Assembly (NCBI RefSeq): GCF_024453815.1
Contig: NZ_CP072934.1
Span: forward strand, 2,046,001 to 2,110,000
Reading direction: 5' to 3'
Source of the DNA: Corynebacterium pseudogenitalium
GTDB lineage: Bacteria > Actinomycetota > Actinomycetes > Mycobacteriales > Mycobacteriaceae
DNA: 64,000 nt
Below are positions 22,077-62,427 of the stretch, one piece after another. The position numbers and the translations under genes are program-made. Under the pieces are notes generated by a model. It was not told the DNA's origin. It did not search any database and saw only the letters and a program-made list of their open reading frames with translations. Within the stretch, counting starts at the first letter, position 1. Each line of letters starts with the position of its first letter.

Positions 22077-22151
22077 CACCAGATTCCAGGTTTTTGGAGA
22101 AGCGGCTTCGTAAAACCCCAGGTCGCGGGGACCAAGAGAGGGAATTTGGTG
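22077..22151. repeat. 74-75-nt structured repeat, copy 1
   Basis: Outer arms are CACCAGATTCC (22077) and GGAATTTGGTG (ending 22151). A central CCCAGGTCG lies between them, and an inner stem GGTTTT/AAAACC is visible. It lies in the 21861-22351 interval, which holds no gene, only copies 1 and 2 and the fba terminator. The family has five members in this window. Confidence 0.8.
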
Positions 22152-22170
22152 CGCGGGCAAAAGGCCAAGA

Positions 22171-22244
22171 CACCAAATTCCCGGATTCCAGAAAACCGCC
22201 ACGACAAAACCCCAGGTCGCCCGGCCACGAATAGGAATCTGGTG
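22171..22244. repeat. 74-75-nt structured repeat, copy 2
   Basis: Outer arms CACCAAATTCC and GGAATCTGGTG are compensated so that pairing is kept despite base changes relative to copy 1. It has the same CCCAGGTCG core and the same spacing, and lies 19 bp after copy 1. Confidence 0.78.
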
Positions 22245-22296
22245 CACAGCAGGCCCCCAAAGGGCCCCAAAGGGGCCAAACCACCCCACACACGAA

Positions 22297-22331
22297 GAAA
22301 CCCCCAGGACCGCGAGGGCCCGAGGGGTTTC
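22297..22331 (-). terminator. Terminator of fba
   Basis: Stem GAAACCCC/GGGGTTTC has an internal GC-rich extension. It is followed on the minus strand by TTCG and lies 21 bp after the fba stop. The T-run is short. Confidence 0.65.
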
Positions 22332-22351
22332 AGAAAAAGCAAGCAGTACGA

Positions 22352-23386
22352 CTACTTGGACACGGAGGTGCCAACGGAGCGCAGGTCCTGGCAGGCCTCG
22401 ATGACGCGGTCGGCCATGCCCTGCTCAGCCTTCTTCATGTAGGAGCGTGGGTCGTAGACCTTCTTGTTGCCCACTTCGCCGTCGATCTTCAGGACGCCGT
22501 TGTAGTTCTCGAACATGTGGGAGACCACTGGGCGGGTGAAGGCGTACTGGGTGTCGGTGTCAACGTTCATCTTGATGACGCCGTAACGCAGGGCCTCCTC
22601 GATCTTCTCCTTCTCGGAGCCGGAGCCACCGTGGAAGACGAAGTCGAATGGGTTGGTGCCGGCTGCGAGGCCGAGTTTCTTCTCGGCGACCTTCTGGCCC
22701 ATGTCGAGGACCTCTGGGCGCAGCTTCACGTTGCCTGGCTTGTATACGCCGTGGACGTTGCCGAAGGTTGCGGCCAGCAGGTAGCGGCCGTTCTCGCCGG
22801 TGCCGAGGGCATCGATGGTCTTCTCAAAGTCCTCTTCGCTGGTGTACAGGTTCGCGCCGGCCTTAGCCTGGACGCCGTCTTCTTCGCCACCGACGACGCC
22901 GATCTCGACCTCGAGGATGATGTTGGCCTTGTGTGCCTTCTCCAGGAGCTCCTGGGCGACCTCAAGGTTGTGGTCGATTGGGATGGCGGAGCCGTCCCAC
23001 ATGTGGGACTGGAACAGTGGGTTCTCGCCGCGGTCGACGCGCTCCTGGGAGATCGCGATGAGTGGGCGGACGTACTCGTCGAGAACCTCGAGCTGGCAGT
23101 GGTCGGTGTGCAGCGCAATGTTGACGTCGTAGTGCTTAGCGATCTCATGTGCGAACGCAGCAAGCGCCTGGGCACCCGCAACCTTGTTCTTCACGGACAG
23201 GCCAGAGCCGAACTCTGCGCCGCCGGTCGAGAACTGGATGATGCCGTCAGACTCGGCTTCTGCGAAACCACGAATTGCGGCGTTGATGGTCTCAGACGAC
23301 GTGCAGTTGATGGCCGGGTATGCGAACCCGCCCTTCTTTGCAGTGTCGAGCATCTGGTTGTAGACCTCAGGGGTTGCAATTGGCAT
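22352..23386 (-). CDS. fba: Class II fructose-bisphosphate aldolase
   Basis: 344 aa. It cleaves fructose 1,6-bisphosphate into dihydroxyacetone phosphate and glyceraldehyde 3-phosphate and runs in reverse in gluconeogenesis; it is a zinc-dependent cytoplasmic enzyme. ATG 23386 has GTGGAGG eight bases upstream, which beats an in-frame codon 15 nt earlier. Zinc-site and catalytic residues are visible in ALHTDHC (His93, Asp95, His96), LEVEIGVVGGEEDG, GNVHGVYKPG and FHGGSGS. It is a single gene with its own terminator, as in other corynebacteria. Confidence 0.98.
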   Translation of the reverse strand: MPIATPEVYNQMLDTAKKGGFAYPAINCTSSETINAAIRGFAEAESDGIIQFSTGGAEFGSGLSVKNKVAGAQALAAFAHEIAKHYDVNIALHTDHCQLEVLDEYVRPLIAISQERVDRGENPLFQSHMWDGSAIPIDHNLEVAQELLEKAHKANIILEVEIGVVGGEEDGVQAKAGANLYTSEEDFEKTIDALGTGENGRYLLAATFGNVHGVYKPGNVKLRPEVLDMGQKVAEKKLGLAAGTNPFDFVFHGGSGSEKEKIEEALRYGVIKMNVDTDTQYAFTRPVVSHMFENYNGVLKIDGEVGNKKVYDPRSYMKKAEQGMADRVIEACQDLRSVGTSVSK

Positions 23387-23437
23387 GAAGATAACCTCCA
23401 CTAGAGCTTCTTAGGTACGCCAACCAGTATGCCTGCT

Positions 23438-24658
23438 TTACTGACTATTTGCAGCCGCCACCCGCGCAGCAGCCTCCAGCAGCATCCACCCAGAAAGCTG
23501 TACCGAAAGGTCCCTCTCATCAATTCGGACCAACCCGACGGCTTCGCTCAGGGAGGATGGGCCGAGCCCGTAATTGTGGGGAAGGCGGGCGTCTTCGGTC
23601 CATCGCGCGGAGAAGATCGGCAGTCCGTCGACCTCCAAACGATGGGACCAAAGGGACTCCGCCGAGGCCATAATCAGCCTTGATGCTATCTTTTTGGTCG
23701 CGATGTTCTGGCGGGAGTCTTCCGGCAGGCGCACCGCAACATCTGCGAGGTAGCGCGCGAGAATTCCCTTGAACAGGCCGCCGTCGCCGTCGCCGGATTC
23801 GTAGGGCTTGTTCAGAATTACCCCCTGGGGGGTAGCCATATGCAGGACAATCGCTTCTACGATTGCCCGGATATGTGTGATGTAAAACACGGAATCGTCG
23901 GCGCGTTTTGAGTACGCGAAGGAGTCGATTGGCTCGTCGTCGCGAAGTCCGACGTCGGCGCGCAACGCCAGCGCGATCTCTAGGCTCGCGCCGAGCACCG
24001 TGCCCTGGTTGTACGTATACAGCTTGTCGACGACCTCCGGGCCATGCATCCGCATCCGGATCCCGTCCTGCACCAGGCCTGATTCGGTGACCAGGTTGTC
24101 GAACGTCCAGTCAAGCAGCTCGCGGGCCTTGTCCAGGCGGCCGGTGCGCGCGAACAAGAGGGCGGCCGGGCCGTTCGAGGGCACGTTGTAGAAGGTTTCC
24201 TCCGTGCGCCACGGCAGCACACCCATCACCGGGTCGATGCCTGCGAGCAGGTCGAACTCCAGGGCGTCGAGGGCCTTCGTGCGGCGCGCCAAACCCTCGT
24301 CGACGGCGCGGTTCCACGCCAGGGCCAGCCAGGCCTTGTCGTCGTAGTACTTGTTCTTCGTCAGCTTGCCCAGGTTGCGGCGCTGGATGCCACGCAGGGT
24401 GTCTTTGAGGCGGCGCTTGTGGGTTTTGGTGGGGCGTCGAATAGCGGCGTCGATTTGGCAGTCCAAATAGTGGGCCTGCCACCAGTAGTGCCAGTGCCAG
24501 TAGAGGCGATCCTTCGAGCCCGGCGGCCACGTGACCACCGCGAGGTTCGTCTTCGGCAGCCCCCACAGGCGGGAGGCGTGCCGCTCCTGCACGGCCGATT
24601 GAGCCAGGTCAGCGCGGTGCGACCATGTTTCCGCGGCGGATTCTTCCACAACCTTCAC
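23438..24658 (-). CDS. Glycoside hydrolase family 76-like protein
   Basis: 406 aa, starting at GTG 24658. The (alpha/alpha)6-barrel features of GH76 (endo-alpha-1,6-mannanase family) are visible: a YYDDKAWLALAW segment with the catalytic Asp pair at 106-107, TFYNVPSNGPAALLFAR, and LYTYNQGTVLGA. There is no signal peptide, so the enzyme appears cytoplasmic, which is odd for a mannan hydrolase. It may act on intracellular mannosylated lipid or glycan or serve a regulatory role. It follows the TrmH-like gene by three bases, so it is probably the last gene of the operon starting upstream of pyrE. Confidence 0.85.
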   Translation of the reverse strand: MKVVEESAAETWSHRADLAQSAVQERHASRLWGLPKTNLAVVTWPPGSKDRLYWHWHYWWQAHYLDCQIDAAIRRPTKTHKRRLKDTLRGIQRRNLGKLTKNKYYDDKAWLALAWNRAVDEGLARRTKALDALEFDLLAGIDPVMGVLPWRTEETFYNVPSNGPAALLFARTGRLDKARELLDWTFDNLVTESGLVQDGIRMRMHGPEVVDKLYTYNQGTVLGASLEIALALRADVGLRDDEPIDSFAYSKRADDSVFYITHIRAIVEAIVLHMATPQGVILNKPYESGDGDGGLFKGILARYLADVAVRLPEDSRQNIATKKIASRLIMASAESLWSHRLEVDGLPIFSARWTEDARLPHNYGLGPSSLSEAVGLVRIDERDLSVQLSGWMLLEAAARVAAANSQ

Positions 24659-24661
24659 CTT

Positions 24662-25327
24662 TCACCAAGCAGTACTCAAGTCGGCGTGCTGGCGTATCCA
24701 CGCGTGCATCGCGATGCCCGCAGCAACACCAGCGTTAATCGAACGCGTCGAGCCGAACTGCGCAATCGAGCACGTCATCGACGCCTCGCGCTGCGTCTCG
24801 TCCGTAATGCCGGGACCTTCCTGCCCGAACACTAACACGCAGCGCTGCGGAAGTTCCGCCGTTTCGAGCGGCACGCAGCCGGGCGTGTTATCGATCGCCA
24901 CAATCGGCAGGTCGTGCTCCTTGGCCCACTGGGCGAAGTCCTCGATCGTCGCGTGGTGGCGGATGTGCTGGTAGCGGTCCGTCACCATCGCGCCGCGCCG
25001 GTTCCAGCGCCGCCGCCCAATGATGTGGACTTCCTCGGCCAGAAACGCGTTCGCGGTGCGCACCACGGTGCCGATGTTGGCGTCGTTTTCAAAGTTCTCA
25101 ATCGCGACGTGGAACGGGTGGCGCCGCTGATCCAGCTCCTCGCGGATCGCCTCCAGCGACCAGTAGCGGTAAGCGTCCACTACGTTGCGACGATCCCCCT
25201 CCTCCAAAAACTGCGGATCCAGGCGGGGGTCATCCGGCCACGGGCCCTCCCACGGGCCTACGCCGTGGCGGCCCTCATTCCACTCCGTCGGTCCTTTGGC
25301 CTGCTCAGCCTGCTCAGTTGAGTCCAA
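24662..25327 (-). CDS. TrmH-family (SpoU) RNA 2'-O-methyltransferase
   Basis: 221 aa from TTG 25327, overlapping the pyrE stop by 14 bases; a later start is possible. The knotted SAM-binding domain shows the three SpoU motifs: NFENDANIGTVVRTA (near 78-92), VLVFGQEGPGI and SINAGVAAGIAMHAW. It transfers a methyl group from SAM to a ribose 2'-OH of tRNA or rRNA; the target nucleotide cannot be read from sequence. The N-terminal 40 residues are Pro/Trp-rich and poorly conserved. Co-transcription with pyrE is likely. Confidence 0.92.
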   Translation of the reverse strand: MDSTEQAEQAKGPTEWNEGRHGVGPWEGPWPDDPRLDPQFLEEGDRRNVVDAYRYWSLEAIREELDQRRHPFHVAIENFENDANIGTVVRTANAFLAEEVHIIGRRRWNRRGAMVTDRYQHIRHHATIEDFAQWAKEHDLPIVAIDNTPGCVPLETAELPQRCVLVFGQEGPGITDETQREASMTCSIAQFGSTRSINAGVAAGIAMHAWIRQHADLSTAW

Positions 25328-25847
25328 GGTCCTCGAGCCCCAGCAGGAATCGGTAGTCCAGGCCGGCCTCGTGCAGGGCGTCGGCGGCGCCGGTTGCGCG
25401 GTCCACCACGGTGGCCACCGCGACGACCTCCGCGCCCTCAGCGCGCACGGCCTCCACCGCGGTCAGCGGCGAGTTGCCCGTCGTGGTGGTGTCCTCCACC
25501 ACGAGGACCTTCTTGCCAACAATCGACGGCCCCTCAATCCGGCGCTGCATCCCGTGCTTCTTCGCCTCCTTGCGCACCACGAACGCGTCGATCGGGCGGC
25601 CGGCGGCGTGCATCACGGCCGTGGCCACCGGGTCCGCACCCAGCGTCAGACCACCGACCGCGTCGAACTCCAGGTCCGCCGTCATCTCACGCAACAGCTT
25701 GCCGATCAGCGGCGCAGCCTCATGGTGCAACGTCGCACGACGCAGATCCACGTAGTAGTCCGCCTCCTTCCCGGAGGAAAGCGTGACCTTGCCGCGCACC
25801 ACGGCCAGTTCCTTCACCAGCTCTGCGAGGCGTGCTTTATCGTTCAT
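25314..25847 (-). CDS. pyrE: Orotate phosphoribosyltransferase
   Basis: 177 aa. It couples orotate to PRPP to give orotidine 5'-phosphate in pyrimidine synthesis. The PRPP-binding loop [13 protein letters not shown] is at residues 114-126. [16 protein letters not shown] and [11 protein letters not shown] are also family-typical. The start at 25847 overlaps the end of the upstream membrane-protein gene by 11 bases, and the 3' end overlaps the methyltransferase gene, so the three genes are translationally linked. Confidence 0.97.
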
Positions 25848-26994
25848 GATCGGTTGGCTCCTTCTCGGTGTCCGGGGTGTCTGACGTGTCGTTGAAAATT
25901 GTGGAGGGCTGCTGCTCGCGGCGCACTCTGGTCAAATCATAGAGCTGCGCGCCGTCATCGGCAGGTGAACCGTCCGCGATCGGCGCCACAGAATCCGCCC
26001 CAATCTCGTGGTCCTCCAGCTCGCCGAAACCTCCGCCGGTGACGCGGGTCGGCAGCTCGAGTGGTTCCTCCGGGCGCTGCACCTGCGGGGTCTCCGGCTC
26101 AAGTGCCTCCTCGGCACCGAGCACCGGCGCAAGCGCCGCCGCCTCGCGCGGTGGCAGCGTGCGTGCCGCGTCCGCCAGCAACGCCAGCGGCGCGAACGTG
26201 TCCTCCCAGTCCTGTGGCGTCGAACCGCGCTCCAGCTGGGCCAACACCCAGTCTTGTTCGCACCACACCGCGCACACGCTTTCGGGTATCTCGCGCAGGG
26301 CGGTGCGCACGCGCACATCGATGAAGCGCAGGACGGGACCGGGCTCATTCGTGAACAGCTCGAAGCCCTCGACGGTTTCCACCAGCACCAAATCCGCCGA
26401 GGAATCCGCCTGGAACTGCGGGCGGCGCATATCCACCACGATGTCGCTGACCTCACCCGTTGCGACGGCCACCACCGTCACACCGCCAAGGTCCACCACG
26501 CGAACATCATGGCCGTAGACCTGGCCCGCCACGACATCGCGCGGTTCCGCACCGGACGCCGCCGCACCCCGGTGCCACTCGTCGACCAGGTACTCATCCA
26601 CCTTGGAGAAGCGGAAGCCGTGCTGCTCCGCCCACAGGCGGCGCTCCCGGCGCGACGCGCCCGGCAGCTGCAGGCCCGACATGCGGTGCGGGCGCTTCGG
26701 GGCAGGCTCGGGCGCCGGTGTTGGCTCGGGCTCCGGCTCCGGCTCCGGGGCCTGTTCCAGCTCTAGCTGTGGCTCTGGCTCCGGCGCAGGTTCCGGTTCG
26801 GGTTCCGGTTCCTCTTCCACCTCGAGCGCAGGCTCCTCTTCGACCTCAGGCTCCACGTCCGGCTCGGCCTCAGGCGAGGGCTCGGCTGGTGGCGGAGGGG
26901 GCGTCGATAAGGAGGGAGACGCAGGTGCAAACCACAACCAGACAGCCGCGACCACGAGCAGCGCGGCCAGCCCAAACAACACGTAAGCAATCAT
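25837..26994 (-). CDS. Membrane-anchored Pro/Glu-rich protein of unknown function
   Basis: 385 aa. An N-terminal helix ([21 protein letters not shown]) anchors it. Residues about 30-105 are a Pro/Glu/Ala low-complexity spacer, followed by a charged globular region ([26 protein letters not shown], then [13 protein letters not shown]). The tail is acidic and Pro-rich. I recognise no enzymatic motif. It lies upstream of pyrE in the same operon and overlaps it by 11 bases. The repeat-like EPEPEP coding sequence could change length. Confidence 0.8.
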
Positions 26995-27006
26995 CGAAGA
27001 TTGATA

Positions 27007-27849
27007 CTACAGTGCCGTGGCGACCTTATTCCCCAACCGTGCACTCCACTGCGACCAGCCACCCACATAATGCGTGGCCACCGGCAGGCCCGCGTGCTCC
27101 ATCGCCGCGATGAGCAGCGCGGAGTGGTTGCCCGAACCCGAGTACGTAATCATCTTCGCCGGGTCCGTATTCTGCGTCACGCCCAGGCTTGCGAAGCGGT
27201 CGCGGATGTAGTCCGTCTCCTTGATCTTCCTGGTCTCCTTGCAGAACAGGTCCGCCGCCGGCAGGTTCAGCGCCGACGGGATGTGGCCCGCCTTCAAGTC
27301 CAGTACTTCTCGACGCCCAGCAAAGCGCTTCTCATCACGCGCATCAATCAGGATGCCCTCGAACTGCTGTACGTCCTCCAGCGTCGCCACCGGAAGCTTG
27401 CTGCCCTCCAGTTCCAGGTCGCGCGGCACAACCACGTTGCCTGGGCCGGCGATGGTCTTGAGGCCCTCGGCCTCCCACTCGCGGAAGCCGCCGTCGATAA
27501 TGTGGACGTGCTCCAGGCCAGCCCAGCGCATGATCCACCACGCGCGGGCGGCGAAGACGCCGGAGCCCTGGTCGTAGATGAAGACCGGGCGGTTCGCCTC
27601 GACGCCCCACTCCTCGAGCGCCTCATCGATCACGGCGAGTGACGGCAGCGGATTGCGGCCCTCGCGGCGGCCCGGCATGCCCACGAGGTGGCCCTCCAGG
27701 TCACCGTAGACGGCCGTCGGAATGTGCTCGGACTGAAACTTCTGCCAGGCCTTGCCTGCCTCCGGCTCCCAAGAAACATCGAGCACCGTCTGCTTCTTGC
27801 CGGACTTAATACGTTCGTACAGCTCCTGCGGAGAAATAAAAACAGTCAT
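27007..27849 (-). CDS. Two-domain rhodanese-like sulfurtransferase lacking the catalytic cysteine
   Basis: 280 aa from ATG 27849, where the family N-terminus SPQELYERI begins; codons further upstream are not conserved-looking. Two rhodanese domains are present: the first has VLDVSW, DQGSGVFAARAWWIMRWAG and IIDGGFREW; the second has LIDARDEKRFAG and HIPSALNLP. In active enzymes the second domain carries a persulfide-forming Cys in a CxxG loop. Here the loop reads TYSGSGNHSA with Ser237 at that place. By established mechanism it should not perform classical thiosulfate:cyanide sulfur transfer. It may bind anions or act otherwise. It lies 24 bp downstream of the DUF4265 gene. Confidence 0.88.
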   Translation of the reverse strand: MTVFISPQELYERIKSGKKQTVLDVSWEPEAGKAWQKFQSEHIPTAVYGDLEGHLVGMPGRREGRNPLPSLAVIDEALEEWGVEANRPVFIYDQGSGVFAARAWWIMRWAGLEHVHIIDGGFREWEAEGLKTIAGPGNVVVPRDLELEGSKLPVATLEDVQQFEGILIDARDEKRFAGRREVLDLKAGHIPSALNLPAADLFCKETRKIKETDYIRDRFASLGVTQNTDPAKMITYSGSGNHSALLIAAMEHAGLPVATHYVGGWSQWSARLGNKVATAL

Positions 27850-27872
27850 ACATAACACCATACGCGTATGCC

Positions 27873-28286
27873 TCACGCTGTATAGCCAGGTGCGAGCTGG
27901 ATCACGCCAGAAGCAGCCAAACCCTCCAGCCACTCATCAATACCGGCCTTCGGACAATCCGCACCTATCGACGCCGCCAACATCCCACCCGGGCCCATCT
28001 CCACCCGGCAACCAAACGCCAACAACGTCTCCGCCAGCGAAAACGGCGACTCCCCCTGCGGCAAAATCCGCACCGTGGACGCACCCCCGCGCACCACGAC
28101 CTTATTCACGTGGAACATGCCGCCAACGCGCACGCACTCCACGATGTCCCCCACCGCCAACGACACATCCACAAACGGCACCGACGCAACGACGAAGTGG
28201 CCACCACCAAGCTGGTGAGCCTCAAGTTGCTCGTTCTCCACGCCTGGCACGGCCACCCGTGTGTAAATCGTCGTCGTTGGTTGCAT
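27873..28286 (-). CDS. DUF4265-domain protein
   Basis: 137 aa from ATG 28286; codons further upstream are inside the clpB 3' end. The motifs GGGHFVVASVPFVDVSLAVGDIVE and STVRILPQG fit DUF4265, a small cytoplasmic family of unknown role. It lies 22 bp after clpB and 24 bp before the sulfurtransferase, so it may be part of the heat-inducible transcript. Confidence 0.8.
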   Translation of the reverse strand: MQPTTTIYTRVAVPGVENEQLEAHQLGGGHFVVASVPFVDVSLAVGDIVECVRVGGMFHVNKVVVRGGASTVRILPQGESPFSLAETLLAFGCRVEMGPGGMLAASIGADCPKAGIDEWLEGLAASGVIQLAPGYTA

Positions 28287-28308
28287 GGACAGCAGTGTAG
28301 CCCGAACG

Positions 28309-30867
28309 CTACTTCGCTGCAGACACCACCAACTCCTCACCGCCTTCCGCGACATCAACCTGCACCGCATCACCATCACGGATCGCGCCGGCCAGCAGCT
28401 CCTTCGCCAACCGGTCACCGATCGCCTGCTGGATCACGCGACGCAACGGGCGCGCACCATAGGCAGGGTCGTAGCCGCGGTCCGCGAGCCAGGCCTTCGC
28501 GGCGTCGGAGACGCGGAGCTGGAGGCGTCGAGAAGCAAGGCGATCGGCGAGCGTGCCCAGCTGAATATCGACGATGCCCACCAGCTGCTCCTTCGTCAGC
28601 GGCTCGAACACCACCACATCATCGAGACGGTTGATGAACTCCGGCTTGAAGTGCGCCTTCACCGCGTTCATAATCTGCTCGCGGTCGCCGCCCGCGCCCA
28701 AGTTCGACGTCAGAATGATCACCGTGTTACGGAAATCCACCGTGCGGCCCTGGCCGTCGGTCAGGCGTCCCTCGTCGAGGACCTGCAGCAACACATCGAA
28801 CACATCCTGGTGCGCCTTCTCAACCTCATCGAACAGCACCAGCGAGTACGGGCGACGGCGCACAGCCTCAGTGAGCTGGCCGCCAGCGTCGTAGCCGACG
28901 TACCCCGGAGGGGCACCGACCAGACGCGCGACCGAGTGCTTCTCGCCGTACTCCGACATATCGATGCGCACCATCGCCGCCTCATCATCGAAGAGGAACT
29001 CCGACAGCGCCTTCGCAAGCTCCGTCTTACCCACGCCAGTCGGGCCCAGGAACAGGAAGGAACCAATCGGACGGTTCGGATCCGCAACGCCCGCACGCGA
29101 ACGCCGCACCGCATCCGACACAGCCACGACCGCTTCCTTCTGGCCCACAACGCGGCCAGCAAGGATTGCTTCCATGTCCAGCAGCTTCTCGGTCTCACCC
29201 TGCATCATCTTGCCCGCAGGGATACCCGTCCACGCCGACACAACCTCAGCAATCACCTCAGGAGAAACCTCCTCCGTGAGCATCGTCCTTGACGATGCCC
29301 CCGCAGCCTCCTCAGCGTCCTTGACCTGCTGCTCCAGCTCCGGAATGCGGCCGTAGCGCAGCTCCGAGACCTTCGCGTAATCGCCCTCGCGCTCCGCGAT
29401 CTCGGACTCGTTGCGCAGGTGCTCCAGCTCCTCCTTCGCAGCCTGCACCTTATCGATCTCCGCCTTCTCATTCGACCAACGCGCCTTCAGCTCACCAAGC
29501 TTCTCTCGTTGATCCGCCAACTCCTGGCGCAAATCCGTCAGACGCTCCTTCGAGGCCTCGTCGGACTCCTTCTGCAGCGCGATCTCCTCGATCTCAAGCC
29601 TGCGAACGATACGCTCCAGCTCATCAATCTCCTGCGGCGAAGAATCAATCTCCATCCGCAGCCGCGAACCCGCCTCATCGACCAGGTCAATCGCCTTATC
29701 CGGCAAGAACCTGTTCGTGATGTAACGGTTCGACAGCTCTGCCGCCGCCACCAGCGCCGAGTCCTGGATCCGCACGCCGTGGTGCACCTCGTAGCGCTCC
29801 TTCAGGCCGCGCAGGATACCGATCGTGTCCTCCACAGTCGGCTCGCCCACGTACACCTGCTGGAACCGACGCTCCAACGCCGCATCCTTCTCGATGAACT
29901 GGCGGTACTCATCCAACGTCGTCGCACCAACCAGCCGCAGCTCGCCGCGCGCCAACATCGGCTTAATCATGTTGCCTGCATCCATCGCGCCCTCGCCCGT
30001 GGCGCCAGCGCCGACGATGGTGTGGAGCTCGTCAATAAACGTGATGATCTGCCCGTCGGACTCCTTAATCTCGTCCAACACCGCCTTCAGGCGCTCCTCG
30101 AATTCGCCACGGTACTTCGCGCCCGCAACCATCGACCCGAGGTCCAGGGAGATCAGCGTCTTGCCCTTCAGCGACTCTGGGACGTCGCCCGCCACGATGC
30201 GCCTTGCAAGGCCCTCGACGATCGCCGTCTTACCGACGCCCGGCTCACCAATCAACACCGGATTATTCTTCGTACGACGGGAAAGCACCTGCACCACGCG
30301 TCGAATCTCCGAATCGCGACCAATGACCGGGTCAATCTTGCCCTCGCGCGCACGCGCCGTCAGGTCCGTCGAATACTTCTCCAGCGCCTGGAACTGATCC
30401 TCCGGCGACTCAGTGGTGACCTTCTTATTGCCGCGAACCGACTGGAACGCCGCCTTAATCGCCTCAAACGTGGCGCCGCGCTTCTTCAGCAGCTCCGCCG
30501 CGTCATCATTCCCGCGCGCGATACCCGCCAGCAGCACCTCAGTAGAGACGAACTCGTCACCGAGTTCGCCCGCCAACTCCTGCGCCGCGTTCAACGCATT
30601 CAGGCCGTCACGGTTAAAGTTCGGATTCGCCATATTCTGGCCCTCCGCCTTCGGGTAGGAATCGACCAGCTCAGCAGCCTCCTTCGCGACCGTCTGCGGG
30701 TCCACACCCGTCGCCTGCAGCACCGGCGCCGCGATGCCATCCTCCTGCTTCAGGATCGCCTCAAGTAAATGCGCCGGGCGAATATCCGGGTTGCCCTTCG
30801 CCGACGCCTGCTGCAGCGCCTGCTGCAACGCCTCCTGCGTTTTCGTAGTTGGGTTAAACGAAGACAT
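28309..30867 (-). CDS. clpB: Disaggregase ClpB
   Basis: 852 aa. A hexameric AAA+ ATPase that, with DnaK, DnaJ and GrpE, pulls polypeptides out of aggregates after heat shock. Visible parts are the N-domain ([18 protein letters not shown]), first Walker A GEPGVGKT near residue 205, Walker B ITFIDELH, a coiled-coil middle domain (about 400-520), and second Walker A GPTGVGKT near 605 with [28 protein letters not shown] precedes ATG 30867. Upstream sites indicate SigH activation and HspR repression. Confidence 0.98.
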
Positions 30868-37787: not shown

Positions 37788-37871
37788 TGATGCGCTAGGT
37801 TTTGCGGCTTTGTGGCCTCGGGCTTTTGTCCGGGGCCACTTTGCGTTTTGGGGGTTGCCGGCCTCGCCCGC

Positions 37872-38158
37872 GTCGACCAGCACTTGCGTTTCCCCAGGTC
37901 GCGTCGTCTGTCCACGAAGCAAGTTCCCACGACCACTGCTTCTTCACACCAGATTCCGGGTTTTCAGCGAGCGGATTTACAAAAACCCAGGTCGGACAAA
38001 CCCGATGTAGGAATTTGGTGCGCACCCTCCCCTGCCTGGCGCCCTCAAACCACTCAAAGCGTGGGATTCAAAGCGTGCGATGCAGGTCGCGCTCTCTCAC
38101 TCAACCGGGCCGATTTCCGGCGACCAGCATCGCACTCCTTAAACACCTCGACACGAGC
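37872..38158. repeat. 287-bp direct repeat, left copy (flanks AbiE)
   Basis: It matches 40647-40933 over 287 bp without indels and with only scattered substitutions, same orientation. Inside are the 74-nt element (37947-38020) and a second hairpin whose arms include GTGCGATGC and GCATCGCAC. The gene-free interval 37788-38484 holds this repeat and otherwise only an unconvincing minus-strand frame. Confidence 0.92.
37947..38020. repeat. 74-75-nt structured repeat, copy 3
   Basis: Arms CACCAGATTCC and GGAATTTGGTG with inner stem GGGTTTT/AAAACCC and a small stem TCGG/CCGA after the CCCAGGTCG core, giving a three-way junction layout. Confidence 0.82.
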
Positions 38159-40415: not shown

Positions 40416-40646
40416 ACATTTACGGACATTCAGCGATATGAAGACCAGACCCTCTCCATCCCAGGCTTGCGCTACACATTCATCAGATCAAGCACTTCAA
40501 CAACCCCTCAGTGTCCTCACTTCTTGAGCACGACGCCCCCACGAGGCGACCCGCCTATCCACGACTCAACTGGGACTGCCAATCAATCAGCATCCTTGAA
40601 ATAGTTCCCGCGCCCGGGAACCATTTGGCGTTTCAGGCCTGTTCCC

Positions 40647-40933
40647 GTCGACCAGCACTTGCGTTTCCCCAGGTCGCGTCATCTGTCTACGAAGAAAGTT
40701 CCCACGACCACTGCTTCTTCGCACCAGATTCCGGGTTTTCAGCGAGCGGATTTACAAAAACCCGGGTCGGACAAACCCGATGTAGGAATTTGGTGCGCAT
40801 CCACCCCTGCCTGTCACCCTCAAACCACTCAAAGCGTGGGCTTTAAAGCGTGCGATGCAGGTCGCGCTTTCTCACCCAACCGGGCCGATTTTCGACGACC
40901 AGCATCGCACTCCTTAAACACCTCGACACGAGC
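40647..40933. repeat. 287-bp direct repeat, right copy (flanks AbiE)
   Basis: It matches 37872-38158. The rest of the gene-free interval 40350-41034 holds the AbiE operator on the left and the terminator of the dnaK operon on the right. The two copies bracket 2.5 kb containing only AbiE. Confidence 0.92.
40722..40795. repeat. 74-75-nt structured repeat, copy 4
   Basis: Arms CACCAGATTCC and GGAATTTGGTG. The core reads CCCGGGTCG. It differs from copy 3 by very few bases because it lies within the second 287-bp repeat. Confidence 0.82.
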
Positions 40934-41433: not shown

Positions 41434-41435
41434 GG

Positions 41436-54118: not shown

Positions 54119-54162
54119 GGCGCCAAGTCTAGCCTGCTTTCACGCGGGGCTAAAGTAAACGC

Positions 54163-55062: not shown

Positions 55063-55119
55063 CGTTTGGTAAAGCAGCAGCGTGGTGCTAAAATTACCCA
55101 CTGCTGCATTACATGCGCT

Positions 55120-55193: not shown

Positions 55194-55197
55194 CTAT

Positions 55198-55214: not shown

Positions 55215-55342
55215 GTAGGCGTTTGCGTTAGCGCGTACGCCCCAAGGGGGTCAAGAAAATCGCTTGCGTTAGCGAGTGTATAGCGCATTAGCTCTGACCT
55301 GCGGAAGCGCTTTCCTCTCTTTCGGCTGAGCGAGCGTTTGCG

Positions 55343-56734
55343 TTAGCAGGCGTTGATCTGGTCAAGGCGGACGCTATGGTCGGCGACCTCGGTAACGAGT
55401 TCAGCGTCGTGGGTGATGACAATGACGACGGCACCAGTGTCAGCGAGTTTACGCATTACTCGGGAAATCGCGACAAGGTGCTTGTAGCCAACACCGGACG
55501 TGGGTTCGTCGAAGATGTAAACTTTCTTGTTCGCAGCAAGCGCTGTAGCAATAACCAGGCGTTGGCGCTGCCCGCCAGAGAGTGCTTGGGGATGGTCAGC
55601 CTCGTGGTCGGCAAGGTCGAGTTCTTCAAGGATCGCGTGGGCATCGATGTGTTGCTTTTCGGCTTTGGTCGTGCCGAGCGTGACTTCGTCGATGACGGTA
55701 TCTGAGAACAACTGTCGGGTAGGGTCTTGCATCACAAGGTAGGCGTCACGGCTGGGGAATTTTTGTCCATTGAGTGTGATGGATGCGTGTTTGGCTTTTT
55801 CTAGTCCGCAAACAATGCGTGCCAGGGTTGATTTCCCTGAACCGCACGGGCCGAGGAGCGCTGTGATTTTCCCTGCCGGAAACAACACGTGGTTAATATT
55901 GAGGACTGTGTTTCCGTGGCGGTAGGCAAAGGTGAGGTTGCTGATCTCCAGCCCCTCCCCTGCCGGTTCCGGAAGTTGTGGCATAGGCACAGTTACTAGG
56001 GATCGCAGTCCAAGCTGTTTGCGCTCCTCATCCGAGGTAGCGTAGAACTCTTCGCCGGTTGCGGTGAGGACGATGTTGCCTTTATCGAAGTAGTAGACAC
56101 GGTCAGCGATCCCGGAAAGAAAACTTAGCCGGTGTTCAGCAATGATGATCGTGTGTCCATCAGCTTTGAGCCTGGCGATGAGTGTGGCGAGTTGGCCGAT
56201 AAGATCAGCTGATAGGTTCGCGGTCGGCTCGTCAAAGACGATCAGCGACGTGTTGTTGCACATGGCGACGGCGCAGGCCACGCGTTGCATCTGCCCGCCC
56301 GACAGCTGTGTGACGCGGGATTCCAACAGGTCGGCGATACCTAACTCGGCTGCAACCTCGTCAATGCGGGCACAGATCTCCTGCGGGGCGCGGCCGAGAT
56401 TTTCTGGGCCGAAGGCGAGTTCTTGGCGCACGTGAGTGGTGTAGAACTGGGTGCGTGGGTTTTGAAACACTGTCGAACAGTGGTGGGCAAGCTCTGATAG
56501 ATCTACTCGTGCCACGTCAATGTCGTCGACTGTGACGCTTCCGGTAAGGTCGCCGTCGTGAAAGTGTGGGATGAGCCCGTTAAACAGCCGTAACGCGGTG
56601 GTCTTCCCCGATCCCGATGCGCCACACAGCAAGGTGACGGTTCCGGGTGTGATGGTGATGGTTGCGTCATTGATTGAGGGGTGGTCTGCTCCTCGATAGG
56701 TGAAGGTGACGCCGGTGGCTTGGGTTATTGTCAT
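55343..56734 (-). CDS. ECF transporter ATPase, two fused NBDs (EcfA)
   Basis: 463 aa from ATG 56734, overlapping the EcfT stop by four bases. Two ATP-binding domains lie in one chain: the first with GASGSGKTT (near 40), LSGGQMQR and DEPTANL; the second with GPCGSGKST (near 295), LSGGQRQR and DEPTSGV. It powers the ECF-type importer formed with the T and S components encoded just upstream. The substrate is set by the S subunit. Last gene of the five-gene operon. Confidence 0.94.
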   Translation of the reverse strand: MTITQATGVTFTYRGADHPSINDATITITPGTVTLLCGASGSGKTTALRLFNGLIPHFHDGDLTGSVTVDDIDVARVDLSELAHHCSTVFQNPRTQFYTTHVRQELAFGPENLGRAPQEICARIDEVAAELGIADLLESRVTQLSGGQMQRVACAVAMCNNTSLIVFDEPTANLSADLIGQLATLIARLKADGHTIIIAEHRLSFLSGIADRVYYFDKGNIVLTATGEEFYATSDEERKQLGLRSLVTVPMPQLPEPAGEGLEISNLTFAYRHGNTVLNINHVLFPAGKITALLGPCGSGKSTLARIVCGLEKAKHASITLNGQKFPSRDAYLVMQDPTRQLFSDTVIDEVTLGTTKAEKQHIDAHAILEELDLADHEADHPQALSGGQRQRLVIATALAANKKVYIFDEPTSGVGYKHLVAISRVMRKLADTGAVVIVITHDAELVTEVADHSVRLDQINAC

Positions 56735-57417
56735 AGGACGATTCTCCATATCGCGAAACCGATAACGATGAGCAGAATGACTGCGTCGATCACACGGAAT
56801 TTCACGACCGTGACTGAGGTGGGCTTTGCGGTTCCGCCCAGTCCGCGCACGAGGGCGGCCGATGCCAGTTCGTCCCCGCTGCGTACCACGGTCGATAGCA
56901 GCGGGATTGTGAAGTACTGGGCCGCGCGCAGGGAAAGCGCGGACATGCCGCGTAGTTTCATCGCATCTGAGATCGCTTTAACCTCGTGGCCGATCACAGG
57001 CAGCACACGTAAGGCAACCGAGATTGGGATCGTGAAACAGGTTGGGATTCGTGAGCTGGCGAGTGCTTTTTGCAAGGTGGCGGGTCGGATCACGCCGATC
57101 GCGTAGGCTCCCATTCCTGCGCTGACACTGAATCGCCACATCCACTGCAAAAACAGCACGAGGAACGCGCTGACCGTTGACTTCCACACCAGTGGTATCA
57201 CGAAGACGAGCCCGCCGAGGACCGCAAACGTGGCCAGGTAGACGGCCACCCAGCTCGGGCGCACGAGCGTGTTGGGGTTGATCGCAGCGCTCGCCAGCAT
57301 CACGGCGGCGAATCCGCCCAGAGCACACACGAACCACGGCGAGTAGGCACTGTAGATCGTGGTGGAGACGATGACGAGCGCTACGATAATCGTGCGCGGG
57401 TCGGGAAGTTTAGACAA
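56731..57417 (-). CDS. ECF transporter transmembrane component (EcfT)
   Basis: 228 aa if the TTG at 57417 is used, overlapping the S-component stop by eight bases; a TTG at 57471 would overlap it more. Five to six helices and the EcfT coupling helices with the x-R-G signatures (AMKLRGM and ALVRGLGG) are present. It couples the ATPases to the substrate-binding S subunit in the membrane. The start is uncertain. Confidence 0.88.
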   Translation of the reverse strand: MSKLPDPRTIIVALVIVSTTIYSAYSPWFVCALGGFAAVMLASAAINPNTLVRPSWVAVYLATFAVLGGLVFVIPLVWKSTVSAFLVLFLQWMWRFSVSAGMGAYAIGVIRPATLQKALASSRIPTCFTIPISVALRVLPVIGHEVKAISDAMKLRGMSALSLRAAQYFTIPLLSTVVRSGDELASAALVRGLGGTAKPTSVTVVKFRVIDAVILLIVIGFAIWRIVL

Positions 57418-58006
57418 GACCGGCCCGTTCAAAGTGCTTACGCGCCACCCTGGTTCCCAACAGACCAGCAAGCCAGCCCACGATGAGCATCACAACGAAG
57501 AAGCCCAACAGAATCGGAATCGTGACAACCTGCGCCATCTTCGCGGCATACTCGGCGCCCATTTGTTCGGCGATCTGCGACATATATGCGTCTTGGTCCA
57601 TAAATAGCGGCATCCACGGGGAAACATAGATCGGCAGAATAAACAGTGCGTATGCCAGCGGAACGCGAACCTTCACGCTCTTCGGCCCCTTGGTAATGAC
57701 TAGGTCGGCGAGCAGGCCGAATACAGCGGCCACCGCGATTCCCCCTACCCAGTGGCCGGTCACGAAGAAGAGGATTTCGATGATAATCAGCATGATTGTC
57801 AATGCCCCCATCTTCGGAGTGCGTGCTGTGAACAGCGCAAAGACGATGCCGTTAACGAGAATAGAAAGCAAGAAGCCGGCATACATGGCGGCGGGGATGA
57901 ACCCGAGCATTCCGAATGCAAACACGATGACGAACATCAAGGCGGTGAAGACGCCAATGTTGATGAAGTCGCGCGTGTTGAGGCGCGAGGATGTAGGCGT
58001 AGACAT
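57410..58006 (-). CDS. ECF S component, MptD/Trep_Strep family
   Basis: 198 aa from ATG 58006 with AAAGGA eight bases upstream. The N-terminus LNTRDFINIGVFTALMFVIVF and five to six hydrophobic helices are typical of the MptD/Trep_Strep S-subunit family. It should bind the transported molecule. Ligand unknown; its place behind a DtxR box suggests a metal- or siderophore-related compound. Confidence 0.87.
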   Translation of the reverse strand: MSTPTSSRLNTRDFINIGVFTALMFVIVFAFGMLGFIPAAMYAGFLLSILVNGIVFALFTARTPKMGALTIMLIIIEILFFVTGHWVGGIAVAAVFGLLADLVITKGPKSVKVRVPLAYALFILPIYVSPWMPLFMDQDAYMSQIAEQMGAEYAAKMAQVVTIPILLGFFVVMLIVGWLAGLLGTRVARKHFERAGLV

Positions 58007-58040
58007 AGTTTTTCCTTTCATGTGCTTATACGTGCTGTGT

Positions 58041-59789
58041 TTAGACGAGTTGCCATCCAGCTGCGTTGATGCGTTCTTGCCAGAAATCGCGGTATTGACC
58101 CGGCTGGTTGACCAGCTCGTCGTGGCACCCGCGCTGGGCGATACGCCCATCGTGGGAGAGCACAATGATTTGGTCAGCTTGGCGAATGGTTTCAAGTTTG
58201 TGGGCGATGACAATTAGTGTGGAGTGCTTACGCAGCTCGTTCATCGCCGCAACAATGTTGGCTTCATTTTCCGCGTCCAACGCGCTGGTGGCCTCATCGA
58301 ACAGCACGATCGGGGCTTTCTTCACCAAGGCGCGAGCGATGGACACTCGTTGGCGTTCCCCACCTGACAGTGCACGCCCGCCAGCACCCGCCAATGAATT
58401 CCAGCCGTCTGGGAGGCGGTTGACAATTTCCGTCACGCCCGACAGCTCAGCGGCCCACCTGATTTCTTCATCAGTAGCTTCGGGATTGCCAAGGCGAATG
58501 TTGGCTTCGAGAGTGTCGTTGAATAAGTAGACGTCTTGGAAGACCAGAGATATCTGGCGCATCAAATCTTCGGTGGTCTGCTCGCGCACGTCCACTCCGC
58601 CAACGCGCACGCTGCCGGACTGCACATCCCAGAAACGTGCAACCATCCGGGCGATCGTCGTCTTCCCGCACCCAGATGGACCAACCAGGGCACACATGCC
58701 GCCTTGCGGGACATGGAAGGACATATCGTGCAGCACCGGGGTGTCCGGATCGTAGCTGAAGGTGACGTCCTCGAAACGAACATCACCAGGTGCCCTCACT
58801 GGTGTAGAGGCATCGGGTTCGGACAGTTCGGGGGCATCCATGACCTTGTCGACGTGGTTCATCTGCTGGCGGCGTTCTTCCAGCCCGGTCATGCAGCCAC
58901 CGATGTCTTGGAGCATGGTGGTGAACCGCAGGCACATGCCGATTGTGACCACGGCGTTCAGCGCATTCATTTGCCCGCCGAGGGCGAGTTGGGCGGTCAG
59001 CCAGATCATTATCACGACGAGGGCTTGGACGAACATTCCATTAATCAGGTTCGCTAATGTTTCGATCCACAATGCTTTGCGGCTTTTGCGGTCAGCCTGT
59101 TTGAATGCCCGATCAAGGGCCGGGTAGTCGTCGGCGACATGGCAGGAGCGCAGCGCGCCTTGGCAGGTGGCGAATTCGACCATGCGAGCCGCCAATTCTG
59201 ACTCAGCTGGTTCGGAAACCTGCTTACCTTTATCAAGAAGCACGCGGGAGATATGGAGGAAGGCGAGCATGATCGGGAACGCGATCGTCAAGGTCAGTCC
59301 CAGCCGCCAATCCCAGAACCAGGTTCCCACAGTGATCACCAGCACGGCTGAGAGTTTTTGGACGAGGGAGAAAATGAAGTGCGCCGCCGACTCGCCCAAG
59401 TTCATCATTTCCTGGGTGACCATGCGCGACAGTCGGCCAGAGCTACCCGAATCGAACACTCCCAACGGTAGGCGGGCTACTTTGTTACCTATTGCGTGGT
59501 GGACGTCGTGAATGAACCCGAGCGCGCCAATATAGCCGGTGCGCATGCCATAAAACTCGGTGCCTACACCCGCTACCGAGATCACCGCCAAGGCGATGAG
59601 CCAGCCCCAAAACGATAACCCCCACACCGGCATTCCGGTCGCTAGGGCACTTGCTGCGGGAAGCAGAATCAGCAGGGCAAAGCCGTGACACAGTCCTGAG
59701 ACCGCACCCCACGCTTGACCGACCGAGAGGTCACGCCACGAGGCGGGTTCCATCAAACGCTTAAAGCGTGGCAGCAATAGTTGATTCAT
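58041..59789 (-). CDS. Exporter-fold ABC transporter subunit 2 (YbtQ/IrtB-like)
   Basis: 582 aa. An N-terminal six-helix membrane domain (about 1-310) is fused to an ATPase: Walker A GPSGCGKTT (near 370), LSGGERQRVSIARAL (near 472), Walker B IVLFDEATSALDAE. It pairs with the upstream gene, which it overlaps by four bases (ATGA). Heterodimers of this kind (YbtPQ, IrtAB) import ferric siderophores despite their exporter fold. There is no siderophore-interaction domain. Confidence 0.9.
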   Translation of the reverse strand: MNQLLLPRFKRLMEPASWRDLSVGQAWGAVSGLCHGFALLILLPAASALATGMPVWGLSFWGWLIALAVISVAGVGTEFYGMRTGYIGALGFIHDVHHAIGNKVARLPLGVFDSGSSGRLSRMVTQEMMNLGESAAHFIFSLVQKLSAVLVITVGTWFWDWRLGLTLTIAFPIMLAFLHISRVLLDKGKQVSEPAESELAARMVEFATCQGALRSCHVADDYPALDRAFKQADRKSRKALWIETLANLINGMFVQALVVIMIWLTAQLALGGQMNALNAVVTIGMCLRFTTMLQDIGGCMTGLEERRQQMNHVDKVMDAPELSEPDASTPVRAPGDVRFEDVTFSYDPDTPVLHDMSFHVPQGGMCALVGPSGCGKTTIARMVARFWDVQSGSVRVGGVDVREQTTEDLMRQISLVFQDVYLFNDTLEANIRLGNPEATDEEIRWAAELSGVTEIVNRLPDGWNSLAGAGGRALSGGERQRVSIARALVKKAPIVLFDEATSALDAENEANIVAAMNELRKHSTLIVIAHKLETIRQADQIIVLSHDGRIAQRGCHDELVNQPGQYRDFWQERINAAGWQLV

Positions 59790-61573
59790 CGTGTCATCTC
59801 CTCACATGCACCTTGGGCAAGAAGTGCCTGATAGTGCGCATTACCCAACAGCTCGTCGTGTTTACCGACCACAGCAATGCGCCCGCGTTCCATGACGACA
59901 ATCTGATCCGCGCCCCTGATCGAGGCCAACCGGTGGGCGATCACAATCACGGTTCTGCCTTTGGCAAGAGTCGAGAGAGCTTGTTGAATTTTCGATTCCG
60001 ATTCCGGGTCCGCCATCGCCGTCGCCTCGTCCAGCACCAACACTGGGGCATCAACCATGAGCGCCCGGGCGATCGCGATACGGGCTGCCTGCCCGCCCGA
60101 AACGTGGGTGTCCTCCCCCAACACGGTGTCGTAACCATCTGGCAGGCTCATGATGAACTCGTCGATCTGCGCGGCTCTCGCCGCCTGTCGCACCTGATCC
60201 AAGGTTGCGTCTGGCGCGCCCAGGGCAATGTTGTTGTGGATGGTGTCGCGAATAAGCTGTGCATCTTGCAAGACGAACGCGACCGTCGAATACAACAAAT
60301 CCTGGGAAATGCTCTTTAGATCAACCCCGCCGATAGTGATCGTGCCAGCGTCCGGGTCATCGAAGCGGGCAATTAAACTCGCCAACGTCGACTTCCCCGC
60401 ACCCGACGGGCCAACCAGCGCGGTCACCGTGCCTGCCGGAATGCTCAGGCTCACCTCGTCTAATGCCTGGGTGTCGTCATAGGCATACGACACACCCCGA
60501 ATCTCGATATCATGACCGTGTGGTGTCTGTGGCGCATCGGGCTGACTCAACGCTGGTAGCTCCATGACGTTCACCAGCCTCACTGCCGCAGACCCTGCGA
60601 GCTGGTACGACCAGGCGATGGTTGCGACTGCCATCAACGCTCCCGGCAGCACCAAGGCGATCAACGTCGTCGTTATCACCTCGTAGATGCTCACCCAACC
60701 GGCGTTCATCATCAACGCGCCACCGCCAAGGTTCACGATCAACAACACCGGGATCGACACCCACGAAAATGAGGCGACCGACATCGACACCAGCGGCATA
60801 CACCACGCCCGGTAGAACTTAGAAAACTCGTTAGCCGCATCTAAATAGGCTTTATGTGCTTGGCCGACCTTGCCGAATGCTTTCACCACTGAGATACCGG
60901 CAACGAACTCGGCCATCGTTGCCGAAACCTGAGCGAGCTTGGTGTCCATTTGTGCGGTCTTCTCATTCATCCCACGCATCGACATGCCATACATGCCCAC
61001 ATAAATCGGAATCGTCGCAATCGACAGCAGAGCGAGCCGCCAATCCACCACAAACGCATACACCAACAAGGCGAGCGGGGATACGATCGCGTTCAGTTTC
61101 TCAATCGGCCCGTGCGCGATCACTGTATGCACCGTGGCCGTATCATCCTGAATGGTCTTGCGGATCTTCCCCTCACCCTCGCGGGTAAACCACGACAGCG
61201 GAGCAGTCGACATTCGGGCGGCAATTTGCCGACGCATCTGATTACGCAACGACAGGTCAATAAAATGCGTCACGCCCAATGCAACAAAATATAAGGTCAA
61301 CCGGGCCATGTATGCGCTGACGAGGAGCATGACGATCCAGTTCACCCGCGCCGGGTCCACCTGGTCTTGCATAAGTTCTCTGCCAAGCTCCACCAGAGCC
61401 ACATACGGGGCAATAGCCAACACGCCTGAGAGAAAAGCCAAAACCTGCGCGATAAACAGTTTGCCTTTCACCGGCTGCGATAGCTGACGGATCGCGTTCT
61501 GGCCAGCGACAGATTTTTCCTTCGCGGACCCATACTCACCGTCAACAACCTGATCCGTTACACTATCGTTCAC
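59786..61573 (-). CDS. Exporter-fold ABC transporter subunit 1 (YbtP/IrtA-like)
   Basis: 595 aa from GTG 61573 with AAGGA upstream. Six-helix membrane domain, then ATPase with GPSGAGKST (near 387), VSGGQAARIAIARAL (near 489) and Walker B LVLDEATAMADPESE. The AMAD in place of SALD is usual in the siderophore-importing subgroup. First gene of the operon; a DtxR box lies 17 bp upstream of its start. Expected role: heterodimeric uptake of a ferric siderophore, or handling of a product passed to or from the ECF module. Confidence 0.9.
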   Translation of the reverse strand: MNDSVTDQVVDGEYGSAKEKSVAGQNAIRQLSQPVKGKLFIAQVLAFLSGVLAIAPYVALVELGRELMQDQVDPARVNWIVMLLVSAYMARLTLYFVALGVTHFIDLSLRNQMRRQIAARMSTAPLSWFTREGEGKIRKTIQDDTATVHTVIAHGPIEKLNAIVSPLALLVYAFVVDWRLALLSIATIPIYVGMYGMSMRGMNEKTAQMDTKLAQVSATMAEFVAGISVVKAFGKVGQAHKAYLDAANEFSKFYRAWCMPLVSMSVASFSWVSIPVLLIVNLGGGALMMNAGWVSIYEVITTTLIALVLPGALMAVATIAWSYQLAGSAAVRLVNVMELPALSQPDAPQTPHGHDIEIRGVSYAYDDTQALDEVSLSIPAGTVTALVGPSGAGKSTLASLIARFDDPDAGTITIGGVDLKSISQDLLYSTVAFVLQDAQLIRDTIHNNIALGAPDATLDQVRQAARAAQIDEFIMSLPDGYDTVLGEDTHVSGGQAARIAIARALMVDAPVLVLDEATAMADPESESKIQQALSTLAKGRTVIVIAHRLASIRGADQIVVMERGRIAVVGKHDELLGNAHYQALLAQGACEEMTR

Positions 61574-61589
61574 GTAAACACCATCCTTA

Positions 61590-61608
61590 TTAGGTAAGTC
61601 TAACCTTA
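61590..61608 (-). promoter_or_regulatory. DtxR box controlling the ABC-ECF operon
   Basis: TTAGGTAAGTCTAACCTTA matches the 19-bp DtxR/IdeR consensus at 16 or so positions. It sits 17 bp before the first gene, so the operon should be repressed when iron is plentiful. Confidence 0.88.
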
Positions 61609-61658
61609 CTCGCTTTCTGGGAGGTGTACCTAACCGTGCACATCAACCGATACGAGCA

Positions 61659-61880
61659 TCACCCTTTCAAGGCCATGCTTACCTGTTCACCGGTGCGGAA
61701 TACCAACCGGATCGTATCCTCGTCTACGATGGCGTGGTCAATGAGTGCGCTCCACTCTACATCTGTAAGAACGAAGGCTCTTGGGCTGGAAGTTTGCTGC
61801 GCCCGCGAAATGGGTTCGCACCGATCAAGCACTTCAGGACTGTCCAACACGAACCTGAAGCAAGTCCATCTACTGCTCAA
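61659..61880 (-). pseudogene. Possible remnant of a large serine recombinase C-terminus
   Basis: A minus-strand frame of 73 codons ends DVEWSALIDHAIVDEDTIRL then VFRTGEQVSMALKG. The pattern W-(x)-LID-x-x-x-V-(x)-DxIxxxFxxG resembles the last segment of large serine recombinases. No catalytic domain is present. A plus-strand frame over the same DNA is an alternative. The rest of 61574-62443 has no gene: DtxR box, subterminal repeat, inverted repeat, a terminator-like hairpin and palindromes. Confidence 0.3.
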
Positions 61881-62160
61881 GAGTACGAAACACTCACAGA
61901 GTTAATTCTCGAAACGCTCAATCAAGCCGGTATTGAAACACTCCGTGCCCTCCAACCACTAGCTGAAAGCGATGACACCCCCTAACCAGATACCCGCTAA
62001 CGCAAGCCCACCCGCAGATCCCCTTGGCTTCAAACGGACGCCACCCCCAGTGGGCGTTACAGCGATGACTGCCGGATCGCCGAACCTCCAGCGAAGTAGC
62101 GAGCAGTCTCAAAAACAGCTAAATCCCAGCTCAACAGGGGTTTAGTGACTCATGCGGCTT

Positions 62161-62177
62161 TTATCATTTTCGACGTC
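62161..62177 (-). repeat. Right 17-bp inverted repeat of the iron-transport segment
   Basis: The complement reads GACGTCGAAAATGATAA, the same as 55198-55214, in inverted orientation 6.95 kb away. No target-site duplication is evident next to either copy. Confidence 0.9.
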
Positions 62178-62189
62178 TAAGCCTCCACT

Positions 62190-62212
62190 AACACCCCTTT
62201 TGCAGGGGTGTT
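62190..62212 (+). terminator. Terminator-like hairpin at the right end of the segment
   Basis: Stem AACACCCC/GGGGTGTT with a 7-nt loop is followed by TACGTTTGCCGTTTTT. No plus-strand gene clearly precedes it, so its role is uncertain. Confidence 0.45.
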
Positions 62213-62246
62213 TACGTTTGCCGTTTTTGAGGTGGGCGGAGACGCG

Positions 62247-62336
62247 AGTGACAAAAGACGCAACCCGAAAAAGTAGGGTCGACATAACTGCAGGTCACAA
62301 AATGGATAGCCAATAAGAGATGCGTCTTTTGTCACT
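62247..62336. repeat. Perfect 16-bp inverted repeat with 58-nt loop
   Basis: AGTGACAAAAGACGCA at 62247-62262 is repeated inverted at 62321-62336. The loop carries a GTCGAC...TGCAGGTCA stretch like the one near 21242. Confidence 0.75.
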
Positions 62337-62352
62337 GGCGCAACGGGACGCG

Positions 62353-62427
62353 CACCAGATTCCGGCGTTTCGGCGAGCGTCCCAGCATTTCGCCCAGGTA
62401 GCGCGCCTCGCGGGAGGGAATTTGGCG
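62353..62427. repeat. 74-75-nt structured repeat, copy 5
   Basis: Arms CACCAGATTCC and GGAATTTGGCG. Inner stem GGCG/CGCC replaces GGGTTTT/AAAACCC of other copies, a compensatory change that keeps pairing. It lies 17 bp after the VanW gene end. Confidence 0.75.

Follow-up and report, generated by a model that had tools for sequence, protein, structure and literature searches.

Short paired-arm repeats of Corynebacterium, probably mobile duplex-DNA modules of a REP/BIME-like mosaic system

The 64,000-nucleotide stretch of the Corynebacterium pseudogenitalium chromosome analysed here (the window; bases 2,046,001-2,110,000 of the 2,389,603-base chromosome, genome G000) carries five copies of a short element with inverted arms, named here the A unit, together with units of other families (B, C and D). 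These units are probably, at a likelihood that we put near 0.6, small non-autonomous mobile modules of duplex DNA which form a mosaic repeat system of Corynebacterium resembling the repetitive extragenic palindromic (REP) sequences and bacterial interspersed mosaic elements (BIMEs). Each unit would be a pair of inverted sequence-specific arms, of one kind per family, placed around a linker that holds a common core in most families. A lineage-specific protein would recognise the arms in pairs, while a common bending or architectural factor may recognise the core, as integration host factor (IHF) does between the REPs of BIME-1. New units would be placed beside old ones in such a way that the complexes keep helical phase.

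Conservation of the A units in the window

A first-pass annotation of the window had described the A units as five copies at four loci, with 11-bp outer arms, a common central sequence and a shared orientation, and had read their base changes as compensatory. Reading of the sequence confirmed the place and length (74-75 nt) of all five and their inverted arms (CACCANATTCC), which have a single mismatch, in the 3′ arm of copy 5 (GGAATTTGGCG). The central CCCAGGTCG is exact in three copies, and the other two have CCCGGGTCG and CCCAGGTAG. The core lies on the plus strand in all five copies, whereas both orientations are found chromosome-wide. The copies at 37947 and 40722 cannot be counted as independent, being part of one 288-bp duplication (94.8% identity), and the neighbouring B, C and D units had been missed.

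The compensatory changes did not survive closer inspection. Copy 1 has a G opposite a T (wobble) and copy 2 an A opposite a C (mismatch). In an alignment of 80 A copies of 72-77 nt (three others, of 80, 83 and 85 nt, were excluded), the most variable arm position, position 6, is paired in 41 copies and unpaired in 39. The 11-bp arms are paired in 93.1% of the cells, a value equalled by 470 of 500 shuffles. No pair of arm positions covaries in these 80 copies, the score being reached by 475 of the 500 shuffles, and RNAalifold retains five outer pairs of which none is changed on both sides. The A arms are conserved as sequence, not as covarying pairs, and the selection on a folded three-way junction that had been proposed is left unsupported.

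These results bear on the possibility that the units are RNA elements, long-loop hairpins transcribed as a small RNA or as the 3′ end of an mRNA, which we regard as highly improbable. The folding energy of the plus strand is below that of shuffled sequences in four of the five copies (z -2.37 to -3.83; -0.93 in the fifth), as such elements would have it, and the arms are complementary in each family. Against an RNA stand the missing covariation, the interchange of A and T runs in the core, and the outcome of Rfam searches, which gave one tRNA only in the window at the gathering score and four sub-threshold matches, none accepted, in seven element loci. The predicted inner folds vary among the five copies.

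Copy number and distribution

The A arm is more frequent than chance would give: CACCARATTCC matches exactly at 123 places of the G000 chromosome and its reversed pattern at none. There are 64 A units with exact arms in the chromosome, and 83 copies when mismatches are allowed within 305,876 bases of stretches picked for holding arms. The further copies in the genome and in relatives on which the first-pass annotation had made its proposal depend are therefore present: the exact A pattern occurs in six of 242 Corynebacterium genomes (none in the remaining 236), three relatives having 59, 92 and 15 exact units. The arms of the B family (AGTGMCAAARGACGCA) have 57 exact matches in G000, where 36 B copies of 79-80 or 90-91 nt were found.

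Genome G080 (L057) and C. wankanglinii zg-913 (L062/L121) have one A unit each, nearly identical in sequence and in both cases adjoining a C unit in the way seen in the window, which looks like a single transfer. Four of the 101 stretches found (L082, L090, L124 and L126) are from outside Corynebacterium; they lack the core and were discarded as chance matches. No plasmid matched the array at 22 kb of the window.

Spacing of the arms in mixed arrays

The A units alternate with B units in arrays and, within the window, also adjoin C and D units. In sampled stretches of four genomes the gap between neighbouring A units is 19 nt in 76 of 87 cases, the A-B gap 16-17 nt in 71 of 77 and the B-A gap 16-17 nt in 63 of 73. 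Inside the units, the two arms are 52-53 nt apart in 233 of 277 A units, while B units have inner gaps of 47 nt (46 of 93) or 58-59 nt (37 of 93). The centre-to-centre distance between arms is ~30 bp for A-A and A-B alike. Counting orthologous arrays of sister strains, 54 gaps exceed the main value by 9-12 nt and three by 4-8 nt; when the B inner gaps are excluded these numbers are 17 and two. The spacing thus changes in steps of about one helical turn, which argues for proteins bound to duplex DNA. Together with the sequence-conserved arms, it favours the predicted protein-binding DNA that was one of the options of the first-pass annotation.

A 33-nt mini A unit, made of two arms 11 nt apart, is found at G000:C1:253017-253049 and also in strain NML98-0116, which belongs to the same species. 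At G000:C1:2234918-2235002, an 85-nt unit combines A arms with an interior resembling that of the longer B units (CTAG, CCTGCA), and its composition suggests that arms and linkers may be exchangeable. The arrays were also considered as a clustered regularly interspaced short palindromic repeats (CRISPR) array and set apart from it, as the interiors of the units vary and the units invert, where near-identical direct repeats with unique spacers are required.

Homology at unit edges and differences between strains

The option of a non-autonomous mobile element, also offered by the first-pass annotation, gains support from homology bounded by the unit edges and from arrays that vary between strains. 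Among the 53 arrays of G000, 218 matches were found, 111 of them inverted; unit edges lie within 5 nt of both ends in 110 matches and of one end in 74, versus 1.5% and 13.6%, respectively, expected for random placement. When G000 was compared with the sampled stretches of NML98-0116, 24 of the 31 arrays with counterparts there agreed in the kinds and order of their units and seven differed (for example B-A-A-A vs B-A at 2,009,687 and B-A vs A-B-A-A at 2,323,593). Several of the G000 intergenic places also hold arrays in NML130628, made up of other units; past dnaA, the A-B of G000 corresponds to a longer array in NML130628, in which A-A-B precedes an A arm.

Some A units are interrupted by longer DNA. 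The unit near recR is split by ~3 kb (L020/L021, G000:C1:170613-173614) containing a gene that presumably codes for a Tet(W)-type ribosomal protection protein, and this unit has therefore served as a landing place for a resistance gene. The segments G000:C1:22294-22598 and 170608-170912 (305 bp, 94.8% identical and mutually inverted) each start from a truncated A unit; two A units carry one and the same insertion end. At positions 2003542-2003802 G000 has A-B-A, and the NML98-0116 counterpart (L102) has A units flanking 1,061 bp, in which one reading frame seems to resemble a Panacea/DUF4065 antitoxin.

A core common to unrelated arms

The core, CR(AAA/TTT)NCCCAGGTCRC, is also found elsewhere in Corynebacterium, where it is enclosed by different inverted arms that vary with the species. 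The search pattern CRWWWNCCCAGGTCRC matches in 145 of 242 Corynebacterium genomes, with 40 matches in G000, 57 in G160, 42 in G218 and 22 in G146, the reversed pattern giving none in each of these four and matches in a few other genomes. With a shifted core pattern, G000 gave no match and 14 of 401 genomes gave matches. The core letters are set by the search pattern, while the preceding G, present in 53 of 83 representatives, is not; by eye, the three W letters of the core come as AAA or TTT.

Arms were scored in 60 core loci from 14 other genomes, one core being tested per locus, 58 of which have an AAA or TTT core. Inverted arms with a score of at least 11 flank the core in 35 of these 58 loci, versus two of 800 places chosen at random from 40 control loci, and 23 loci are therefore without such arms. 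Arrays of cores with other arms have periods of 83 bp in G017 (GTCGACCTCA-type arms), 83-84 and 72 bp in G218, 85 bp in G146 and 69 bp in G158. The stretch G017:C1:2133800-2135800 (L165) contains ten core units in tandem, exactly 83 bp apart, with GTCGACCTCA arms.

Family-wide, the core search matches in 171 of 301 genomes, mostly one to a few times, and to the eye much of this matching is background. Arms with a score of at least 11 were found in four (L221, L222, L225 and L235) of 19 loci from other genera (L221-L239). Viral contigs gave six exact matches of one core form, judged by eye to be without arms and not retained. In two genomes of another genus, a core near DnaA-box-like words was considered as a replication origin and rejected, the adjacent frames being, by eye, unlike dnaA and dnaN.

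The units of the window are listed in Table 1.

Table 1. Paired-arm units of the window (window coordinates).
Unit	Position	Strand	Length (nt)	Remarks
B	21981..22059	-	79	common core, GACCTGGG at 22009-22017 on the minus strand; 17 nt ahead of A unit 1
A unit 1	22077..22151	+	75	
Spacer between A units 1 and 2	22152..22170		19	
A unit 2	22171..22244	+	74	
C	37832..37928 (left edge approximate)	+		core CGTTTCCCCAGGTCGC; right arm GTTCCC; 18 nt ahead of A unit 3; read from sequence
A unit 3	37947..38020	+	74	
D	38075..38135	+		arms GTGCGATGC/GCATCGCAC; includes GCAGGTCGCG; read from sequence
C	40616..40703	+		arms GGGAAC/GTTCCC; core CGTTTCCCCAGGTCGC; read from sequence
A unit 4	40722..40795	+	74	inside the duplicate of the block with A unit 3
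D	40850..40910	+		read from sequence
B	62247..62336	+	90	second core type CTGCAGGTCAC
A unit 5	62353..62427	+	75	16 nt past the B unit

Genomic location and orientation

According to a crude gene caller, 48 of the 53 G000 arrays are intergenic, four are inside a gene and one is at an edge; the in-gene calls include the 22-kb window array, in a doubtful frame, and a chance-like arm pair at 2,088,080. The same caller places 24 arrays between convergent, 20 between tandem and four between divergent genes. This location, mostly convergent or downstream of genes, and the complementary arms are the part of the small RNA or 3′-end proposal that stands. Orientation speaks against it: in tandem intergenic regions 12 cores have the same orientation as transcription and 17 the opposite one, and every relative orientation is found among adjacent A units (++ 5, -- 6, -+ 6, +- 1). 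We disfavour an RNA because of these mixed orientations and of the helical-turn steps.

A DnaA-like protein is encoded from base 1 of G000, and the dnaA-nearest 40% of the chromosome contains 59 of the 65 forward arm matches and 30 of their 36 clusters (Kolmogorov-Smirnov (KS) p 4.6e-8 for clusters). Likewise, 66 of 75 arm matches of NML98-0116 are in its origin-nearest 40%. An A-B array lies at G000:C1:1553-1733 (L056), just past the dnaA frame and ahead of a DnaA-box-like sequence.

Such clustering would be expected if the units were chromosome-organising sites that benefit the host, nucleoprotein landmarks (insulators between convergent genes or a mark of the origin domain) kept by host selection and not copying themselves. 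The helical phasing of the spacings, the 24 arrays between convergent genes and the arrays of NML130628 at the same intergenic places agree with it. We nevertheless consider it unlikely: the exact A pattern varies from 92 through 64, 59 and 15 to one copy in relatives and is absent from 236 of 242 genomes, strains differ in array content, and the origin bias is weak for the core in 24 other genomes (91 loci, among the matches listed; KS p 0.025 with base 1 taken as the origin).

Proposed copying of the units

Ordinary miniature inverted-repeat transposable elements (MITEs), derived by deletion from a DDE-type insertion sequence (IS) whose terminal repeats would be the arms, would account for the inverted termini, the sharp unit edges and the dispersal. 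Direct repeats of 3-9 nt around 83 units do not exceed those of re-paired flanks (3 nt, 19 seen vs 19.0 expected; 4 nt, six vs 5.9; 5-9 nt, none). The constant neighbour spacing and the occurrence of one core within unrelated arms also speak against MITEs, and inspection of stretches, short of a systematic search, revealed no autonomous element bearing the arms. This makes a MITE origin distinctly improbable.

Genes of the AbiEi/DUF559 type are the largest recurrent family among the neighbours of cores (five core, one control). A profile built from such proteins matches at seven of 60 core loci (in one case ~870 nt away from the core) versus one of 40 controls, a difference that is not significant (one-sided p 0.097). 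One of the three DUF559 matches in G000 sits between two A-A pairs, and an element-bearing stretch of NML130628 (L094) contains a relative with the same gene. On the other hand, only one of 52 DUF559 matches in 22 genomes, among the matches listed, is within 2 kb of a core, and most of these neighbours are not recognised by Pfam. These genes are only a candidate for the copying enzyme, a weak lead. In two genomes of another genus (L230 and L236), oppositely oriented cores follow the common words TATCCACAGGGCAATC just ahead of AbiEi-like genes, one of which matches AbiEi_4 (E 2e-5) and the other does not.

Several points weigh against mobile modules. The Y1 transposase profile PF01797 has no match in G000 (it matched in five of 14 control genomes), and the absence of target duplication above re-paired flanks applies here too. 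No clean empty site was seen among the compared arrays and jumps of single units are unproven; array turnover could be explained by recombination between arrays. The loci were selected for containing elements, and the helical-step counts, with their orthologous sister-strain arrays, are not independent. Finally, the strong origin-side clustering is not accounted for by simple copying.

Relation to known repeats

PMC3733652 and PMC2817692 describe REPs and BIMEs as present in many copies, intergenic, of alternating orientation, regularly spaced and arranged in mosaics. The Corynebacterium units resemble them in high copy number (64 exact units) and intergenic position (48 of 53 arrays), in alternating inverted units with regular spacing, in mosaics and in location between convergent or downstream of genes. 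They differ in that no GTAG/CGTC tag lies beside the units (within 10 nt outside the arm in 15 of 83 copies, 20-30 nt away in 28 and inside in one), that the A and B arms are not self-palindromic, that families with unrelated arms have a common core and that G000 lacks a Y1 (REP-associated tyrosine transposase, RAYT) enzyme. According to PMC6006769, the Actinobacteridae have only the IS-type subclass of Y1/RAYT enzymes. The units are not classed as members of the REP/BIME group because neither the tag nor the Y1 enzyme was found when tested.

BIME-1/RIB elements are similar in that a linker with a putative architectural-protein site is flanked by a pair of inverted arms; the inter-REP sequence of BIME-1 binds IHF according to PMC2817692. 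The arms of the Corynebacterium units differ from these in varying from species to species. Their core presumably differs from the IHF consensus.

With MITEs the units have in common a short length, inverted ends that qualify as terminal inverted repeats, many copies and no genes, but they are without target duplication, have fixed neighbour spacing and have no known parent element. BOX elements of Streptococcus are modular mosaics of short unlike units between genes, whose modules are not known to pair inverted arms about a single core; the likeness, a modular intergenic mosaic, is one of description. The survey of PMC2267715 included C. diphtheriae. No published Corynebacterium repeat of this kind, and no account of the core, was found in a literature search that reached few subscription journals.

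Significance

A bolder version of the mobile-module reading, which is quite unlikely, is that of a REP/BIME-like system in a phylum reported to be without REP-type transposases, spread by another class of enzyme, possibly AbiEi/DUF559 (Vsr-like), with a common architectural protein docked on the core, an arm specificity evolved by each lineage and arrays that grow as helically phased nucleoprotein complexes, concentrated near the replication origin in this clade.

Mosaic intergenic repeats of this plan have been linked to Y1 transposases; here they have a shared core and freely changing arms. If small mobile modules are the correct explanation, the REP/BIME way of life would have arisen more than once, with a Corynebacterium-wide counterpart and no Y1 enzyme in G000. 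The spacing steps of roughly one turn of the helix also give a prediction for the assembly of the complexes. Direct questions are the identity of the core-binding protein and of the enzyme responsible for copying, and the reason for the origin-side gathering of the units in this clade.

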